Below the pieces are notes generated by a model. It had not been told where the DNA came from. It saw only the letters and a program-made list of their open reading frames with translations, and searched no databases. DNA of 64,000 nucleotides, taken from positions 1 to 64,000 of the forward strand of contig NZ_JADDKQ010000003.1 of NCBI RefSeq assembly GCF_016464425.1. Reading direction: 5' to 3'. Origin of the DNA: Actinotalea solisilvae (GTDB taxonomy: Bacteria; Actinomycetota; Actinomycetes; Actinomycetales; Cellulomonadaceae). This document shows positions 6,715 through 59,433 of this stretch, piece by piece; position 1 is the first letter of the stretch, and every line of letters begins with the position of its first letter. Made by a program: the position numbers and the translations under genes.

Positions 6715-7371
6715 ATGGCGCACGCGACCGACGGGCGAGCGAGCGACGTGCCCGCGACGAACGGGCCGACCCCGAGCGGCCGAGCAACCACCGGGCCGCC
6801 GACCAGCGCCCACGTGCCCAGCGGGCCCACGGCCGGCGAGGCACAGACCAGCGCGCACATGCCCAGCGGGCCCACGACGGGCGCTCACCCGGCCAGCGGG
6901 CCCGCGACCGGCGCTCACGTGGCCAGCGAGCCCACGGCGCCCGCGCACCTGGCCAGCGAGCCCACCACTAGCGCGCGCGGAACCAGCGGGCTCGCGACCG
7001 GCGCGTACGCGCCGCGCGCTCCGGCGGTCGCCGTCGGGTCGAGCCCGCGACGCGTCGCGCTGCTGCGGGCGGTGGGCGTGCTGGCCACGGCGGTGGTCGC
7101 CGTCGTGCTCGTCGTCGGCTGGTGGGAGGACTCGGGCACCGGCACCCTGCTCGTCGTCGGGGTGCCCCTCGCCGCGGCAGCCCTCGTCGTGCTCGCCGGC
7201 GGTGGTCGCGCCGCCAACGCCGTCACGTGGCTCGCAGCGGTCGTCGTCATCGGCTGGGCGCTGGTGACGGGCCTCGGCGCGGGGTTCTGGTTCATCGTGC
7301 CCGGCGCGCTGCTCCTCACCGCCGCCGTCGACGGCGCCGGGATCTCCCCGGCGGATCGCGCGCGGCCGTAG
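6715..7371 (+). CDS. Membrane protein with 10-residue repeat N-terminus
   Basis: A 218-aa protein of unknown function. Residues 1-104 are low complexity, built of ten-residue units of the form TGAHxASGPT (residues 30-39, then 45 to about 104, with a five-residue half unit between). The C-terminal half has about four hydrophobic segments starting near residue 115 (VALLRAVGVLATAVVAVVLV, then TLLVVGVPLAAAALVVLAGG and two more), resembling small actinobacterial membrane proteins. An AGCGGAGG ribosome site precedes the ATG. The repeat region is probably disordered and exposed to cytoplasm or wall; topology is not certain. Confidence 0.7.
   Translation: MAHATDGRASDVPATNGPTPSGRATTGPPTSAHVPSGPTAGEAQTSAHMPSGPTTGAHPASGPATGAHVASEPTAPAHLASEPTTSARGTSGLATGAYAPRAPAVAVGSSPRRVALLRAVGVLATAVVAVVLVVGWWEDSGTGTLLVVGVPLAAAALVVLAGGGRAANAVTWLAAVVVIGWALVTGLGAGFWFIVPGALLLTAAVDGAGISPADRARP
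6802..7020 (+). repeat. Coding 30-base tandem repeat
   Basis: Units at 6802-6831, 6847-6876, 6877-6906, 6907-6936, 6937-6966 and 6967-6996, then a partial copy to 7020. A 15-base half unit lies at 6832-6846. All keep frame, and units diverge by several bases, so the array is not very recent. Confidence 0.85.
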
Positions 7372-7491: not shown

Positions 7492-9114
7492 CTAGAAGGG
7501 CGGCTCGTCGTGCTCGGTGTCGGGTGGTCGCGGGTCGCGTGTGGGCGTGTGCGCGTCGGGTGGGTCGTCGGTCCATGCGGGGCCGGGGTCGTCGGGGGGT
7601 GGCGGGTCGGGGTCGGGCCAGGCGGGTGGCCGGTCGTAGGCGTGGCCGGTCGGTGAGGTCCACACGGTGGTCCCGTCCGGGGATCGGGCGGGGGTCCAGC
7701 CGGCGTGGGTCTTGGCGCGGTGGTGGTGGCGGCACAGGGCCTGCAGGTTGTCCAGGCGCGTCTGGTCCACGCCCGCACCCGCAGCGCCGGCCGCGCCGGC
7801 AGCACCCGGGGGGCTCGCGGGCCCGGACGTGCTCGCGGGGTCCGTCGCGCTGGCGGGGTCCGTGGCGCTGGCGGGGTCTGTGGCGCTGGTGGGGTCTGTG
7901 GCGGCTGCGTGCTGGTCGTAGGGCTGGAGGTGGTCGATGTCGCAGCGGGTGGCCGGGACGCGGCAGCCGGGGAAGGTGCAGGTGCGGTCGCGGGCGGTCA
8001 CCGCGTCGCGCAGGGGTTGGGTCGGGGCGTAGCGGCGGGTCGAGCGGGCCAGGGGCTCACCGGTGGCCGCGTCGACCAGCAGCGGCTCCCACGTCGAGCG
8101 CGCGGCCAGGCGCCGCACCAGGTTCGAGGGGATCACCCCGTACCCGTCCAGCACGCCGGGCTGGTCCTCCAGGCCCAGGACCGTCGCGGCGGTCGCGGTC
8201 ACCGTCAGGTGCGGCGCCCGACCCTGCACCGTGCGCAGCGGACGCCCGTCGGGGTGCACCCCGGCGTCCCACCACCGCGTGGCCAGGTCCACCAGGGCGT
8301 CGGCGCGGCGCTGATCCAAGGTCCGGGCATCGAAGCGGTCCCGCTCCTCCGGCGAGACGTCCCGCGCCAGCGCGGTCAGCGTGGCCTGGACCGCGACCGC
8401 GTCCACCGCGGGCAGGTACGCCGACAACCACGCCATCGCGTCCGCCGCCGGCACGAGCTCCACCCGCCGCTGGTCGCACGCCCGCCGGTGACGCACCACC
8501 GCACCATCGGGGTCCCGCAACAGCTCCATCCGCCGCAACCGCTGCCGCAGCTGCGGCGCCGTGCATCCCACGGCCTGCGGCAGCACCGCGGCCGCGACCT
8601 CGACCGCCACGTGCTCGGGGACCCGGGCCAGCTCATCGACCAGCACCGTCGCCCGCCGCACATCCAGACGACCCTCAGCCAGGGCATCGGCGACCACCGG
8701 GACCCGGTCCAGGCCGATCGCCAACCCCACCTTCCCCTCGGCCACCGCACGCGTCACCCCCAACCGCGCCGCGACCTCGTCGCCCACGAACTCCGCCCGC
8801 TCCCCCACCCGCCGCCGACCCAGCTCGGCCAGCGCCGCCGCCTGACCCGCCACCGCCCACGAGACGACCCGCTCCCACCCCGCGACCAGCTCCACCAGCG
8901 CCGCGTCATCGACATCCGCCGGCTCACAGCCCGCCAGCACTTCCACCAGCCCCACACCCGGCACCATCGCGTCCAACGCCGCCGCCAACGGATGACGCTC
9001 CGCCCAGGAGAGCGGGACGCCGTCCGCTCCGCGGATCGCTGCGTCACCGTCGGGCGCCGCGGCCGCGTCGGCGCGCGCCCGCGCCACCGGCGCCTCGACC
9101 ACGGAACTCGACAT
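7492..9114 (-). CDS. DUF222 domain HNH endonuclease (13E12 family)
   Basis: A 540-aa protein of the actinobacterial DUF222-HNH (REP13E12) family, often multicopy and sometimes linked to mobile DNA. The DUF222 helical domain spans residues about 50-330. The HNH nuclease follows: RDRTCTFPGC, CDIDHLQPYD, and LDNLQALCRHHHRAKTH. Between the DHLQPY and DNLQALC halves is an insert of about 40 residues made of repeated SATDPA units and AAG units. The ATG at 9114 is preferred because TAGCGT lies seven bases upstream; a further 29 codons are open but unlikely. The cleavage target is unknown. Confidence 0.9.
   Translation of the reverse strand: MSSSVVEAPVARARADAAAAPDGDAAIRGADGVPLSWAERHPLAAALDAMVPGVGLVEVLAGCEPADVDDAALVELVAGWERVVSWAVAGQAAALAELGRRRVGERAEFVGDEVAARLGVTRAVAEGKVGLAIGLDRVPVVADALAEGRLDVRRATVLVDELARVPEHVAVEVAAAVLPQAVGCTAPQLRQRLRRMELLRDPDGAVVRHRRACDQRRVELVPAADAMAWLSAYLPAVDAVAVQATLTALARDVSPEERDRFDARTLDQRRADALVDLATRWWDAGVHPDGRPLRTVQGRAPHLTVTATAATVLGLEDQPGVLDGYGVIPSNLVRRLAARSTWEPLLVDAATGEPLARSTRRYAPTQPLRDAVTARDRTCTFPGCRVPATRCDIDHLQPYDQHAAATDPTSATDPASATDPASATDPASTSGPASPPGAAGAAGAAGAGVDQTRLDNLQALCRHHHRAKTHAGWTPARSPDGTTVWTSPTGHAYDRPPAWPDPDPPPPDDPGPAWTDDPPDAHTPTRDPRPPDTEHDEPPF
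7831..7905 (-). repeat. 18-base minisatellite inside the HNH domain
   Basis: About four copies of an 18-base unit (GCGCTGGCGGGGTCCGTG on the plus strand) encode SATDPA repeats in frame. The unit length keeps the reading frame when copies are gained or lost. Confidence 0.8.
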
Positions 9115-52574: not shown

Positions 52575-54356
52575 ATGCAGACCCACCAGTACGACGTCGT
52601 CATCGTCGGCGCCGGCGGCGCGGGCATGCGGGCTGCGCTGGAGTCCTCGACCCGGGCCCGTACCGCGGTGCTCACCAAGCTCTACCCGACGCGCTCGCAC
52701 ACCGGCGCGGCGCAGGGCGGGATGTGCGCGGCGCTCGCCAACGTCGAGGACGACAACTGGGAGTGGCACACGTTCGACACCGTCAAGGGCGGTGACTACC
52801 TCGTCGACCAGGACGCGGCCGAGGTCATGGCGAAGGAGGCCATCGACGCGGTGCTCGACCTCGAGCGCATGGGCCTGCCGTTCAACCGCACGCCCGAGGG
52901 CAAGATCGACCAGCGGCGCTTCGGCGGCCACACGCGCAACCACGGCGAGGCGGCCGTCCGCCGGTCCTGCTACGCGGCGGACCGCACCGGGCACATGATC
53001 CTGCAGACGCTCTACCAGCAGTGCGTCAAGCAGGACGTCGAGTTCTTCAACGAGTTCTACGTGCTCGACGTGCTCCTCACGCACGACCTCACGACGGGCG
53101 ACGTGCCCGACGGCGAGGAGGTCGCGGTGAGCGGCGTCGTCGCGTACGAGCTCGCGACCGGCGAGATCCACGTCTTCCGGGCCAAGTCCGTGGTGTTCGC
53201 GACGGGCGGCGCGGGCAAGATCTTCAAGACGACGTCGAACGCCCACACCCTCACGGGCGACGGCATGGCGCTCGCGCTGCGGCGCGGCCTCCCGCTCGAG
53301 GACATGGAGTTCTTCCAGTTCCACCCGACGGGCCTCGCCGGCCTGGGGATCCTCCTGTCGGAGGCGGCTCGCGGCGAGGGCGCGATCCTGCGCAACAGCG
53401 AGGGCGAGCGCTTCATGGAGCGCTACGCGCCGACGATCAAGGACCTCGCGCCGCGTGACATCGTCGCGCGGTCCATGGCGAACGAGGTCCGCGAGGGCCG
53501 CGGCGCCGGGCCGAACAAGGACTACGTCCTGCTCGACCTCACGCATCTCGAGCCCGCGCACATCGACGCCAAGCTGCCGGACATCACGGAGTTCGCCCGG
53601 ACGTACCTCGGCATCGAGCCGTACACCGAGCCCGTCCCCGTGTACCCGACCGCGCACTACGCGATGGGCGGCGTGCCGACGACGATCGACGCCGAGGTGC
53701 TGCGCAACAACACGGACGTGGTGCGGGGCCTCTTCGCGGCCGGCGAGGTCGCGTGCGTCTCGGTGCACGGGTCGAACCGCCTCGGCACCAACTCGCTCCT
53801 CGACATCAACGTCTTCGGCAAGCGCGCGGGCATCGCCGCCGCGGCGTACGCGCAGACGGCGTCGTGGGTGGAGCTGCCCGAGGAGCCGACGTCGGCCGTG
53901 GTCACCGAGATCGAGCGCATGCGCGACGCCGCGGCGGGCGAGCGCGTGGCCGACGTCCGGCGGGCGCTGCAGGAGACGATGGACGCGAACGCCCAGGTGT
54001 TCCGCACCGCCGACTCGCTCACGCAGGCCCTGGCCGACGTGCGCGCGCTCAAGAAGCGCTACCTCGCCGTCGGCGTGCAGGACAAGGGCCGGCGCTACAA
54101 CACCGACCTGCTCGAGGCGATCGAGCTGGGCTTCCTGCTCGACCTGGCCGAGGTCGTCGTCGTCGGCGCGCTCGCGCGCGAGGAGTCACGCGGCGGCCAC
54201 TTCCGGGAGGACTTCCCGACCCGCGACGACGCCAGGTTCATGCAGCACACGATGGCCTACGCGCGGCCGACGGGCGTCGCCGGCGAGACCGAGATCCGCC
54301 TCGACACCAAGCCCGTGACCGTGACCCGCTACCAGCCGATGGAGCGCAAGTACTGA
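52575..54356 (+). CDS. sdhA: Succinate dehydrogenase flavoprotein subunit
   Basis: Oxidises succinate to fumarate at the inner face of the membrane. The 593-aa chain shows the FAD motif VIVGAGGAGMRAALE, the covalent-FAD His in TRSHTGAAQGGM, DYLVDQDAAEVM, FQFHPTGLAGLG, RFMERYAPTIKDLAPRDIVAR (capping region with active Arg) and VSVHGSNRLGTNSLLD. Full length, with no unusual changes. It is joined to sdhB by TGATG. Confidence 0.97.
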   Translation: MQTHQYDVVIVGAGGAGMRAALESSTRARTAVLTKLYPTRSHTGAAQGGMCAALANVEDDNWEWHTFDTVKGGDYLVDQDAAEVMAKEAIDAVLDLERMGLPFNRTPEGKIDQRRFGGHTRNHGEAAVRRSCYAADRTGHMILQTLYQQCVKQDVEFFNEFYVLDVLLTHDLTTGDVPDGEEVAVSGVVAYELATGEIHVFRAKSVVFATGGAGKIFKTTSNAHTLTGDGMALALRRGLPLEDMEFFQFHPTGLAGLGILLSEAARGEGAILRNSEGERFMERYAPTIKDLAPRDIVARSMANEVREGRGAGPNKDYVLLDLTHLEPAHIDAKLPDITEFARTYLGIEPYTEPVPVYPTAHYAMGGVPTTIDAEVLRNNTDVVRGLFAAGEVACVSVHGSNRLGTNSLLDINVFGKRAGIAAAAYAQTASWVELPEEPTSAVVTEIERMRDAAAGERVADVRRALQETMDANAQVFRTADSLTQALADVRALKKRYLAVGVQDKGRRYNTDLLEAIELGFLLDLAEVVVVGALAREESRGGHFREDFPTRDDARFMQHTMAYARPTGVAGETEIRLDTKPVTVTRYQPMERKY

Positions 54357-55126
54357 TGACCGCACTCGACACCCGCGCGACGCAGGCGCCCGAGCCCGAG
54401 GTCGGGGCCGTGCCGAGCTTCGACGTCACGCTGCGCATCCGCCGCTTCAACCCGGACGCCCCGGACCCCGAGGCGTACTGGGAGGAGTTCACGGTCACGG
54501 CGCACGGCACCGACCGCGTGCTCGACGCGATGCACAAGATCAAGTGGGAGACGGACGGGTCGCTGACCTTCCGGCGCTCGTGCGCGCACGGCATCTGCGG
54601 GTCCGACGCGATGCGGATCAACGGCCGCAACCGGCTCGCGTGCAAGACGCTCCTCAAGGACCTCGACATCAAGAAGCCGATCACGGTCGAGCCCATCAAG
54701 GGCCTGCCCGTCGAGAAGGACCTCGTCGTCGACATGGAGCCGTTCTTCGCGTCCTACCGCGAGGTCATGCCGTTCCTCATCACGGGCGGCAACCAGCCGT
54801 CCGGCGAGCGCCGGCAGTCGCCCGAGCAGCGCGAGCGCTACGACGACACGACCAAGTGCATCCTGTGCGCGGCGTGCACGTCGTCGTGCCCGGTGTTCTG
54901 GACCGACGGCCAGTACTTCGGCCCGGCGGCCATCGTCAACGCGCACCGCTTCATCTTCGACAGCCGCGACGAGGGCGGTTCCCAGCGCCTCGAGATCCTC
55001 AACGACAAGGAGGGCGTGTGGCGCTGCCGCACGGTCTTCAACTGCACCGAGGCGTGCCCGCGCGGCATCGAGGTCACGAAGGCCATCCAGGAGGTCAAGC
55101 GCGCGATGATCACCCGCGCCTTCTAG
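54356..55126 (+). CDS. sdhB: Succinate dehydrogenase iron-sulfur subunit
   Basis: A 256-aa electron carrier of complex II. The [2Fe-2S] ligands are in SCAHGICGSDAM and NRLACKTL, and the [4Fe-4S] and [3Fe-4S] ligands in CILCAACTSSCPVFW and CRTVFNCTEACPRGI. GICGSD has Asp where many species have a fourth Cys-side variant; this is normal in SdhB. The N-terminal 20 residues are an acidic linker. A perfect hairpin follows 16 bases after the stop and ends the operon. Confidence 0.97.
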   Translation: MTALDTRATQAPEPEVGAVPSFDVTLRIRRFNPDAPDPEAYWEEFTVTAHGTDRVLDAMHKIKWETDGSLTFRRSCAHGICGSDAMRINGRNRLACKTLLKDLDIKKPITVEPIKGLPVEKDLVVDMEPFFASYREVMPFLITGGNQPSGERRQSPEQRERYDDTTKCILCAACTSSCPVFWTDGQYFGPAAIVNAHRFIFDSRDEGGSQRLEILNDKEGVWRCRTVFNCTEACPRGIEVTKAIQEVKRAMITRAF

Positions 55127-55141
55127 CAGTCCACGTGGGAG

Positions 55142-55170
55142 GAGGGCGGCACGCCGGGCGTGCCGCCCTC
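55142..55170 (+). terminator. 13-pair perfect hairpin terminator of sdhCDAB
   Basis: GAGGGCGGCACGC pairs with GCGTGCCGCCCTC over loop CGG, 16 bases beyond the sdhB stop. Confidence 0.85.
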
Positions 55171-55220
55171 ATCCCTGTCCGCCTCGGGGGCCAGCACACG
55201 CGTCCCGCCACGAAGCCGGG

Positions 55221-55320
55221 TGCCCCCCGCGGAGCCCGTGCCCGACCGCGGAGCCCCGTGCCCGACCGCGGAGCCCCGTGCCCGACCGCGGAGCCCCGTG
55301 CGCCCAGCGCGGAGCACGGT
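55221..55320 (+). repeat. Left array of 20-base repeats
   Basis: Five units, three of them identical (55241-55260, 55261-55280, 55281-55300: CCCGACCGCGGAGCCCCGTG); the first and last are degenerate. Each unit contains the palindrome CCGCGG. The right-hand array at 55501-55665 carries the same unit in reverse orientation. Confidence 0.85.
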
Positions 55321-55497
55321 GCCAGGACACGCCGGCGCGTCGTGACACGGTGCTCCGCTGTCGCGAGCTGCCGGTGGGGTCCGACCACCCGCGGCTGTCG
55401 CCGGCGACGGTGGCGACAGTGGGTCCACGAGCGACCGCCGGTGCCGTCGCGGGCGCCCGCGAGCGAAGTGCCACGACACGCCGGCGTGTCACGGCAC
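55309..55497. other. Centre of the 55-kb inverted repeat element: three nested hairpins
   Basis: GCGGAGCAC (55309-55317) pairs with GTGCTCCGC (55350-55358). CTGTCGCC (55395-55402) pairs with GGCGACAG (55412-55419). A 30-base near-palindrome at 55468-55497 has the perfect core GACACGCCGGCGTGTC (55475-55490). A degenerate copy of this last element lies inside the first hairpin (55319-55350). No gene is supported in the 562 bases between sdhB and the LigT-like gene. Confidence 0.7.
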
Positions 55498-55500
55498 CAG

Positions 55501-55665
55501 GCTCCGCACAGCTGTCACGGGGCTCCGCGGACGGGCACCAGGCTCCGCGGTCGGCACCGGGCTCCGCGGTCGGCACCGGGCTCCGCGGACGGCACGCGGC
55601 TCCGCGGTCGGCACGGGGCTCCGCGGACGGCACCGGGCTCCGCGGTGGGCGCCGGGCTCCGCGGG
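55501..55665 (-). repeat. Right array of 19-20-base repeats, inverted copy
   Basis: About nine units of the form GGCTCCGCGGTCGGCACCGG, the reverse complement of the left unit; alternate units carry TCGG or ACGG after CCGCGG. The last units decay toward 55665, 24 bases from the stop of the LigT-like gene. Confidence 0.85.
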
Positions 55666-55688: not shown

Positions 55689-57751
<2,063 letters not shown>

Positions 57752-57792: not shown

Positions 57793-59433
57793 TCACGGCG
57801 CCGCGCTCTGCGTCTCGTCGAGCACGACGCGCACGTCGCGCTCCTCGTCGCCCGTGCGCACCGTGAGCGTCACCGAGTCCCCGGGCGCCTTGGCGCGGAT
57901 CGCGACGATGAGCTCCTCGTCCTCGGTGACGGGACGGCCGTCGATCGCGACGATGACGTCGCCCGGCTCGATCCCCGCGCGGTCCGCGGGGCCGTCCGCG
58001 GTGACGGGCGCGACCCCGTTCTGCGCCTCGGTCGAGACCTGGACGCCCTCGCCCTGGTAGCGCTGGTCGAGGAGCACGCCGACCACGGGGTACGTCGCGA
58101 CACCCGTCTCGATGAGCTGCTCGGCGGTGCGGCGCGCCTGGTTGGAGCCGATCGCGAAGCCGAGGCCGATGCTGCCCGCGGCCTGCGTCGCGCCCGGCCG
58201 CTGGGCGATCGCCGAGTTGATCCCGATGACCTGGCCGGTCGCGTCCACGAGGGGGCCGCCGGAGTTGCCCGGGTTGATCGCCGCGTCCGTCTGGATCGCG
58301 TTGATGAACGCCGTCTGCTGCCCGCTGCCCGCCGAGACGGGCCGGTTGAGCGCGCTGACGATGCCGGTCGTGACCGTGCCCTGGAGCCCGAGGGGGGCGC
58401 CGATCGCGACCACGGGGTCGCCCACGACGACCGCGTCCGAGTCGCCGAGCACGAGGGGCGTGAGGCCCGTGCGCTCGACCTTGATCACGGCGAGGTCGTA
58501 CGCGGTCGTCCGGCCCACGATCTCGGCGGGCTCCTCGCCGCCGTCGGCGAACACCACGACGATCTCGCCGCCGCCGTCGGCCCCGGCCGCCACGACGTGG
58601 TTGTTGGTGAGGATGTAGCCGTCCTCGCGCAGGACGAATCCCGAGCCCGTGCCCTCGCCGTCGGCCGCGCGGACCTCGATCGCGACGACGCTCGGCAGGA
58701 CCTGCGCGGCGACCTCCGCGACGCCCGTGAGCTCCCCCACGTCCTCGCCGGTCGCCTGCGGGAGCGCGGCGTCGACGGGGCGCGGGCGCTCGAGCCAGCG
58801 CTCGCCCAGGTAGCCGCCCGCGGCGCCGGCGAGCAGCGCGAGCAGGAGGAGCGGCACGACCCAGACGACGCCGAGCGCCCGTCGCGGGCGGCGGACGCGC
58901 TGCGGACGCCCCCAGCTGTCGAGCGGCGGCGAAGGCTCACCGGCAGGGGCGTCGGGCGGGTGCGCCTCGGACGTGGGCGCAGGCGCGGGGCCCAGGACGG
59001 GGGGCTCGCCGGGTCCGGACGACGTCGAGGGTCCGGACACCACAGGTCCGGACGCCACGGGCCCGGACGCCACAGGTCCGGACGCCACGGGCCCGGACGG
59101 CGCGTACCCCGGGGTCGCCTGCCGTGCCGGAGCGTAGCCGGGCGCCGCGAGGCCGGGCGTGGCGCCCGGGGCGGGCGCGGCCGCCGAGGTCGGGGCCGCG
59201 CCGGGCGGCGCGAACCGGGCGTCCGTGGGGCGGGGGCCGGTCGGCCGAGGGCCGGCCGCGGCCGCTGCCGGCTCGGACGACGCACGGGGCGCGTCCGCCG
59301 GGGCCGCCCCGGCGTCCCGCGCCGCGCCGGCGTCGTGCACGGCCGAGCGGTAGGACGACGGCGGCGCGAACGGGTTGACCGGGGCGTCGCGGTCGGGGTC
59401 GCGCGGTGCGTCGGTCGTGGGCTCGGAGGTCAC
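57793..59433 (-). CDS. htrA: HtrA/DegP-like serine protease with PDZ domain
   Basis: A 546-aa membrane-anchored quality-control protease. Residues 1-175 are cytoplasmic and disordered (Pro/Ala/Ser, with SGPVA repeats). One membrane helix, VVWVVPLLLLALLAGAAGGYL, follows. The trypsin-like domain has the triad His in LTNNHVVAAG, Asp in TAYDLAVIKVE and Ser in NPGNSGGPLVD; a PDZ domain (GPADRAGIEPGDVIVAIDGRPV) ends it. The GTG at 59433 is chosen because it overlaps the anti-sigma stop in GTGA; an ATG at 59442 is possible. It acts outside the membrane on misfolded proteins and may cleave the anti-sigma factor. Confidence 0.93.
   Translation of the reverse strand: MTSEPTTDAPRDPDRDAPVNPFAPPSSYRSAVHDAGAARDAGAAPADAPRASSEPAAAAAGPRPTGPRPTDARFAPPGAAPTSAAAPAPGATPGLAAPGYAPARQATPGYAPSGPVASGPVASGPVASGPVVSGPSTSSGPGEPPVLGPAPAPTSEAHPPDAPAGEPSPPLDSWGRPQRVRRPRRALGVVWVVPLLLLALLAGAAGGYLGERWLERPRPVDAALPQATGEDVGELTGVAEVAAQVLPSVVAIEVRAADGEGTGSGFVLREDGYILTNNHVVAAGADGGGEIVVVFADGGEEPAEIVGRTTAYDLAVIKVERTGLTPLVLGDSDAVVVGDPVVAIGAPLGLQGTVTTGIVSALNRPVSAGSGQQTAFINAIQTDAAINPGNSGGPLVDATGQVIGINSAIAQRPGATQAAGSIGLGFAIGSNQARRTAEQLIETGVATYPVVGVLLDQRYQGEGVQVSTEAQNGVAPVTADGPADRAGIEPGDVIVAIDGRPVTEDEELIVAIRAKAPGDSVTLTVRTGDEERDVRVVLDETQSAAP
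59041..59100 (-). repeat. 30-base tandem repeat in htrA
   Basis: Two copies, 59041-59070 and 59071-59100, 29 of 30 bases identical, encode the SGPVASGPVA stretch; each is itself two 15-base halves. Confidence 0.8.

Follow-up and report, generated by a model that had tools for sequence, protein, structure and literature searches.

What is the long inverted repeat that lies between sdhB and a LigT-like gene in Actinotalea solisilvae, and what placed it there? The window (the whole 64,000-nucleotide stretch of DNA analysed) belongs to a draft genome of 41 contigs and 4.3 Mb, with an estimated contamination of 8.2%. A first-pass annotation had described mirrored arrays of a 20-base unit, five direct and about nine reversed, around a structured centre with three hairpins. 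Inverted arrays are indeed present between the two genes (Table 1). However, the repeated unit is 15 bp long (GCGGAGCNNNGTGCC), with a period of 19-20 on the left and mostly 19 on the right. The left array does comprise five units, starting at 55210 (degenerate), 55229 (14 nt), 55248, 55268, and 55288; the right array comprises eight rather than nine (55514, 55534, 55553, 55572, 55591, 55610, 55629, and 55648), and adjoins the right half of core 2. Three left units had been called identical, and a 27-nt stretch is identical in three copies (starts at 55235, 55255, and 55275). The centre resolves not into three hairpins but into two 52-bp palindromic cores, of a kind found family-wide, around a 97-bp spacer. 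Each core consists of two units that face each other around GACACGCCGGCGTGTC.

Table 1. Features of the window at and around the inverted arrays.
Feature	Position	Strand	Remark
sdhB, left neighbour	54356..55126	+	stop at 55126
19-bp inverted repeat 3' of sdhB, terminator-like, no T run	55137..55175	+	outside the element
Left satellite array, 15-bp unit GCGGAGCNNNGTGCC	55210..55302	+	oriented toward core 1
Core 1, 52-bp palindrome, two facing GCGGAGCNNNGTGCC units around GGACACGCCGGCGCGTC	55308..55359		differs from the family pattern at 4 of 42 fixed positions
Spacer between the cores, 97 bp	55360..55456		position where relatives have the nuclease gene
Core 2, 52-bp palindrome, core-1 family	55457..55508		4 of 42 fixed positions differ
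Right satellite array, eight reversed units	55514..55662	-	oriented toward core 2
LigT / 2'-5' RNA ligase-like gene, right neighbour	55689..56222	-	convergent with sdhB

Local composition does not account for the arrays, a concern that the annotation itself had raised. Fourteen units (at most one mismatch, those within the cores counted) lie within 55210-55665 and none in the remainder of the 64-kb window, whereas 500 first-order Markov resamplings of 55210-55665 gave a mean of 0.04 units and a maximum of 1. Compared with shuffled sequence, the locus also folds far more strongly on either strand (z -13.3 and -15.3), because the arrays are inverted. The repeats invert about palindromic cores and the gaps between units are mostly 4-6 bp, which upholds the earlier view that this is not a CRISPR. 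An assembly artefact is unlikely, since similar core-plus-satellite elements occupy most of 14 loci in a congener assembled as one contig (G007). The window contains other, unrelated tandem repeats at 6799-6976 (30-bp unit), 7831-7903 (18-bp), and 59029-59099 (15-bp), the last inside an ORF that by eye resembles an HtrA-type protease.

The element belongs to a dispersed family. Searches located about 16 loci, intergenic and scattered, in this genome, and dispersed copies in relatives too. (The 17 regions taken comprise 13 with cores, one with satellite-like units only, and three chance matches.) A sequence-only model, R1, was built on 19 aligned cores from this genome, whose consensus is GCGGAGCNNNGTGCC-NN-GACACGCCGGCGTGTC. 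Counted on both strands, its 42 best matches comprise 38 to the 19 modelled cores and 4 to two degenerate ones (C38:46729 and C2:57361), all at E 5.5e-7 or better, versus 0.0035 for the rest. In G007, R1 gives 52 matches on both strands, representing at least 24 core places (one partial) at 14 loci, two of which have cores without satellites. When compared with the 14 G007 loci, 5 of the 16 loci of A. solisilvae prove to have an orthologous counterpart that also carries an element. Near three contig ends of the draft (the ends of C26 and C27 and the start of C12) stand elements, at distances of about 120 bases, 12 bases, and 2 kb; the assembly may break at elements near contig ends, and further copies may be missing.

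Satellites in this genome lie to the left, to the right, or on both sides of the cores, depending on the locus. Their orientation is nearly uniform: across 28 loci from this genome and G007, 141 of the 148 satellites situated no more than 260 bp from a core point to the nearest one. Their spacing is similarly constrained, with start-to-start distances of 19, 20, or 21 bp accounting for 47, 43, and 30 (120 in all) of the 137 spacings up to 45 bp.

Could the element serve the host where it stands? All 43 cores (21 own, 22 from G007) lie outside ORFs as called by a simple codon-usage script, which places 88% of the window in ORFs. In these two genomes, both neighbouring genes could be called for 30 element gaps, which divide into 11 convergent, 15 codirectional, and 4 divergent ones. 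Convergent gaps are thus commoner than among background gene pairs (24 of 214; Fisher p 0.0009), although the 30 include gaps that are orthologous to one another and so not fully independent. An intergenic, palindromic, strongly folding element with such a convergent excess might be a BIME/REP-like nucleoid or gyrase site, a bidirectional terminator, or an mRNA-stabilizing structure. Any such host function is nevertheless very improbable. The codirectional and divergent gaps speak against it, sdhB is already followed by a terminator-like hairpin, and the patchy presence of the element tracks a nuclease gene (described below). Moreover, no covariation is seen at the variable positions of the cores in this genome, where pairing is equalled or bettered by 478 of 500 shuffles. 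Since these columns do not change together, fixed half-sites rather than full pairing seem to matter in these cores, to judge from their alignment. The same result, together with one-sided satellites at several loci and a search in which no Rfam family reached its gathering score, tells against the structured RNA that the annotation had entertained, as far as this genome is concerned.

In relatives, the interval between the cores holds a gene. Actinotalea ferrariae (G009) and Cellulomonas sp. APG4 (G014) each have a gene of about 1 kb between palindromes in the sdhB-LigT interval. In G007 (L171) the order is LigT, array, core, gene, core, array, and sdhB, with both arrays pointing inward; the orthologue of the LigT-like gene, 93.6% identical and assigned to 2_5_RNA_ligase2 by Pfam, borders this cassette. 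Comparison of the spacer in the window with the nuclease gene and with other loci found no clear match and no clear gene remnant.

The product of this gene has an AbiEi-like middle part followed by a DUF559 / REase_MTES_1575-like carboxyl-terminal domain (Vsr-type PD-(D/E)XK). The PF04480 (DUF559) match is weak (six of seven members at E <= 0.1, the best at 9.1e-6, with the own-genome copy unmatched), and the best PADLOC match to AbiEi ranges from E 1.2e-6 to 0.02 per protein. The D and E of an RVD...EYD motif, which we take to be the catalytic residues, are invariant in 22 of 22 members. A sequence search of the PDB returned only two matches (E 0.53 and 0.98), and Foldseek found none at E <= 0.001 for an AlphaFold model that is itself weak (three sequences; mean pLDDT 68.5). 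No match was found among 50,697 phage records, and 72,556 plasmid records yielded four weak ones (28-36% identity).

The nuclease forms a sharply bounded clade. With all candidates scored, a four-protein profile finds exactly one strong match in 7 of 15 genomes (next best, 89 bits). Applied to 221 family genomes, a seven-protein profile finds strong loci in 22, numbering 24 in all, at 223 bits or more versus 137 for the next, with the cut placed at this gap after seeing it and nine candidates per genome considered; on the same basis, which may have let additional copies escape, 20 of the 22 carriers have one strong copy, and G013 and G043 have two. Flanks were examined for 22 of the 24 loci. 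At 18 of them the conserved SdhB carboxyl terminus lies within 1.5 kb, which places the gene just 3' of sdhB. By inspection, palindromes or unit arrays stand on either side of 19 of the 22 genes and bracket them, in two cases atypically (short in G010; another unit in G043), and at 17 loci the bracketing palindromes have a GACACGCC..GGCGTGTC-like centre. No palindrome lies beside the gene in G039, G052, or G219. Arrays beside the nuclease gene in G014, G013, and G017 have 20-bp spacing. The very close genomes G155 (L247) and G154 (L251) differ by eye in having about two and about four palindrome-bearing tandem repeats beside the gene, a sign of copy-number change.

The arrangement suggests an autonomous form in which an array and a core, both facing inward, flank each side of an AbiEi/DUF559 nuclease gene, with cores only in some relatives; this best explains the loci compared. 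Where, then, is the gene in A. solisilvae? Its only strong copy lies on another contig (C31, 111501-112445), within a cassette of about 1.46 kb (L042 2535-3997) that has just this architecture. The corresponding site is empty in A. ferrariae, where the flanks lie 17 bp apart (C24:5657/5675), and in G017, where they lie 34 bp apart; in G007 and G014, a match exists for the right flank alone. These flanks are 69-87% identical to those of relatives, too diverged for a target-site duplication to be read. Most simply, the cassette would be a gain in this genome. Because the gene lies at sdhB in 18 of 22 carriers, parsimony suggests that this was its ancestral site, and the window locus, which lacks the gene while both cores and both arrays persist, would be its old home. 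The comparison further suggests that the elements bracket, and evolve with, a nuclease gene that formerly occupied this spot. (In a draft with this level of estimated contamination, the C31 cassette and the window could in principle derive from two close strains.) The mobile repeat proposed in the first-pass annotation is thus supported: the family is dispersed, 5 of its 16 sites here have counterparts in G007, and the site of the gene-bearing copy is empty in two relatives.

How closely do palindrome and nuclease keep company elsewhere? Across 99 genomes (A. solisilvae included), R1 matches 22 at E <= 0.01, but below 1e-5 only A. solisilvae, G007, A. ferrariae, G030, and G052; the remainder, at 1e-4 or weaker, are doubtful. 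G030, from another genus, carries near-perfect palindromes such as GTCAAGTGGAGCG...CGCTCCACTTGAC. A covariance model, R2, made from 11 flanking palindromes of six genomes, matches 33 of 221 family genomes at E <= 1e-4. (Its per-genome counts cover the best 25 candidates on both strands, and are not site numbers.) R2 matches occur in 17 of the 22 genomes that carry the nuclease, as against 16 of the other 199 (Fisher p 1.9e-12), or in 11 of 16 and 16 of 199 when the six source genomes are left out (p 4.5e-8), values that overstate independence in a co-occurrence that is phylogenetically structured. Next to the gene, four carriers without an R2 match (G010, G043, G154, and G159) show palindromes with different arms; the fifth, G052, has R1 matches located away from it.

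Genomes with R2 matches and no strong clade nuclease fall into three sets: G121 and G168 (both with many matches), G139, G150, and G172 of group g20; G223, G059, G224, G040, G225, G226, and G227 of genus g23 (4-12 matches each); and G031, G024, G242, and G249 (one or two each). In G121, G168, and the seven g23 genomes, the absence of a strong nuclease may mean that the gene was lost, that the assembly is incomplete, or that another enzyme takes its place. A more distant DUF559 gene does occur in G040 (L255), flanked on either side by palindromes that differ in sequence. The arms of the g20 palindromes do co-change (36 cells at 12 pairs, with no pair varying on one side only, a cell count reached in 0 of 500 shuffles), a pattern that a DNA hairpin or a site bound by a dimer would explain as well as a structured RNA.

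Palindrome and nuclease also diverge together. Distances between palindromes (one flanking core each, 16 genomes) correlate with those between nucleases (Mantel r 0.64, 0 of 5000 permutations), and by visual comparison the arm types follow the nuclease tree: GCGGAGC in A. solisilvae and G007; TGGAGCG with arrays in G013, G014, and G017; TGGAAG/TGGATG in G120, G128, G147, and G162; TTCTGCCCGAC in G110 and G153; and GGATCC in G103, G154, G155, and G159. Because the distant branches G010, G030, and G110 share the outer TGGAGCG, which may be ancestral, arm type is not a unique clade label. A 195-bp flank of the G014 nuclease gene matches 21 times in that genome, 12 times in G017, and 10 times in G013, and has no match in A. 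solisilvae, G007, or A. ferrariae, which have other arm types, or in eight genomes without the clade nuclease.

Alternatively, the palindromes might be passive repeats, spread by some other, unseen transposase or by host recombination, with the nuclease gene as a passenger or as a neighbour that tolerates insertions. Co-divergence could also follow from shared vertical descent alone, the chemistry of the nuclease is only inferred, identical satellites indicate that arrays expand locally, and palindromes without the clade gene were found, as noted, in 16 of 199 genomes. Against this, a single nuclease clade is bracketed at 19 of 22 loci, and its palindromes co-diverge with it; no Y1/RAYT gene turned up in 19 genomes searched with PF01797; and another DUF559 gene goes with a separate palindrome family. 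Passive spread is therefore unlikely.

That other gene, also in A. solisilvae (match at C32:272071-272637, within region L231, C32:271975-272637), adjoins a nested palindrome of CGAGGTCGCTGG units. An 86-bp stretch of this palindrome has 49 matches in the same genome (both strands), 10 in G014, and 2 in G007, and none in A. ferrariae, G001, or G017. A further short match, at C32:273116, falls beyond the opposite end of the gene, which may thus be bracketed too. The nuclease-palindrome pattern is repeated here with unrelated sequence.

How general is the pattern? Among 12 order-wide DUF559 loci, three (L314, L312, and L319, all of family f15) have long near-perfect palindromes beside the gene, with the same palindrome on both sides in L314; the other nine show nothing as clear. 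A flank-hairpin score, in which bulges are disallowed, reaches 15 or more in 6 of 22 strong-clade loci, 6 of 8 weaker hits of the same nuclease family, 5 of 22 other DUF559 loci, 3 of 12 order-wide loci, and 22 of 150 controls (Mann-Whitney p 0.07, 0.014, 0.12, and 0.79 for the four sets, respectively). By this measure the strong clade is not separated from control genes, and generality is unsupported; the case for it comes from the L231 palindrome family and inspection of the three order-wide loci. On balance, it is slightly more probable than the contrary that actinobacterial AbiEi-DUF559 nucleases run their own class of mobile palindromes, each with a specific palindrome type, and that several such pairs may share one genome. 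Each palindrome type would then bracket its nuclease gene and scatter gene-less copies, often with oriented half-site arrays.

These observations suggest a working model, in which binding, cutting, and copying by the nuclease are all inferred. The AbiEi-like part would bind the 15-bp units cooperatively, as half-sites two helical turns apart, with the core as nucleation site; cooperative binding is proposed because units at about this spacing nearly always face a core. The nuclease domain would then nick or cut palindromes, cores, or extruded hairpins, and repair would copy cores with their satellites to intergenic places elsewhere, in a manner resembling the spread of REPINs by RAYT transposases. 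Local expansion of the satellites would follow through slippage or unequal exchange. The window locus is thus probably the gene-less shell of a mobile palindrome system that resembles a REPtron but depends on a nuclease rather than a RAYT for its spread.

The same binding properties would also suit a regulon, in which the AbiEi-like nuclease acts as a repressor on operators formed by the arrays. Binding would start at the palindrome and extend cooperatively, and selection on expression would retain the copies. AbiEi is described as binding 23-bp inverted repeats and autoregulating (PMC7319586); the nuclease proteins resemble AbiEi, their genes are bracketed by palindromes, and oriented half-sites two helical turns apart fit cooperative binding. 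However, the palindromes stand on both sides of the nuclease gene, not upstream alone. The regulon reading is further weakened by the excess of convergent gaps, where no promoter is expected, and by site turnover, as 5 of 16 sites kept at the orthologous G007 place are few for a regulon. It is quite improbable, and nuclease-driven spread is the preferred reading. If true, it would add a second enzymatic route, besides RAYTs, by which short repeats spread, and would suggest a role for some DUF559 genes of Actinobacteria; matched enzyme-site pairs make it directly testable. Among the papers listed by literature searches, none linked DUF559 nucleases to dispersed palindromes, which is weak evidence, subscription papers being mostly outside the coverage of that search. 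The results point to nuclease-linked palindromes as an undescribed way for small bacterial DNA repeats to spread.

Several known systems share parts of this design. BIMEs and E. coli REP sequences are, like the element here, intergenic palindromic mosaics; BIMEs bind gyrase, IHF, or Pol I. The motif and the enzyme differ here, and membership of the BIME class, considered in the first-pass annotation, is not supported, given that other motif, the nuclease link, and the want of a RAYT/Y1 gene in 19 genomes. Vsr-type homing endonucleases, which have a nuclease domain of the same kind, sit in introns or inteins. VsrA of Caulobacter has a DUF559 / PD-(D/E)XK nuclease domain like the one described here (PMC12907096), but is tied to a cytosine methyltransferase; in the literature consulted, dispersed cognate palindromes are described neither for VsrA nor for the homing endonucleases. 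AbiEi antitoxins (type IV toxin-antitoxin systems) share the AbiEi-like part, and AbiEi binds inverted repeats (PMC7319586). Here, however, that part is joined to a nuclease domain, and the repeats are dispersed through the genome instead of lying in one promoter.

The closest parallel is with REPINs and their RAYTs. Both systems consist of dispersed intergenic palindromes in doublets of inverted units (PMC8049555, PMC3116915, PMC3733652), and in both a dedicated enzyme gene, usually single-copy and mostly vertically inherited, is flanked by its own repeats. RAYTs are described as single-copy and vertically inherited, and REPINs as occurring also in genomes without a RAYT (PMC8049555); similarly, palindromes here are kept in genomes without the enzyme. 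Where several REP families coexist, REPtrons are repeat-specific (PMC3733652), as the enzymes here appear to be. The same source notes that no dedicated transposase seems to exist for CGTC-tagged REPs, and that palindromic families without a tag have yet to be studied. A RAYT-driven REPIN was considered and rejected: PF01797 matched in 0 of 19 genomes (including A. solisilvae, G007, A. ferrariae, and G030), whereas a control search matched in 5 of 14 control genomes. Neither a GTAG nor a CGTC tag is among the invariant columns of the 19-core consensus. The palindromes here are about 50-60 bp, oriented satellite arrays at 19-21 bp accompany them in some genomes, and the protein is an AbiEi-like/DUF559 PD-(D/E)XK protein rather than a Y1 (HUH) transposase. 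The inverted doublets are dispersed in intergenic DNA (43 of 43 cores outside called ORFs), and the flanked gene is usually single-copy and mostly vertically inherited, as in a REPtron, albeit with a different enzyme. Because membership among REPtrons fails on enzyme and tag, the system is here called a new kind, one that works like a REPtron.
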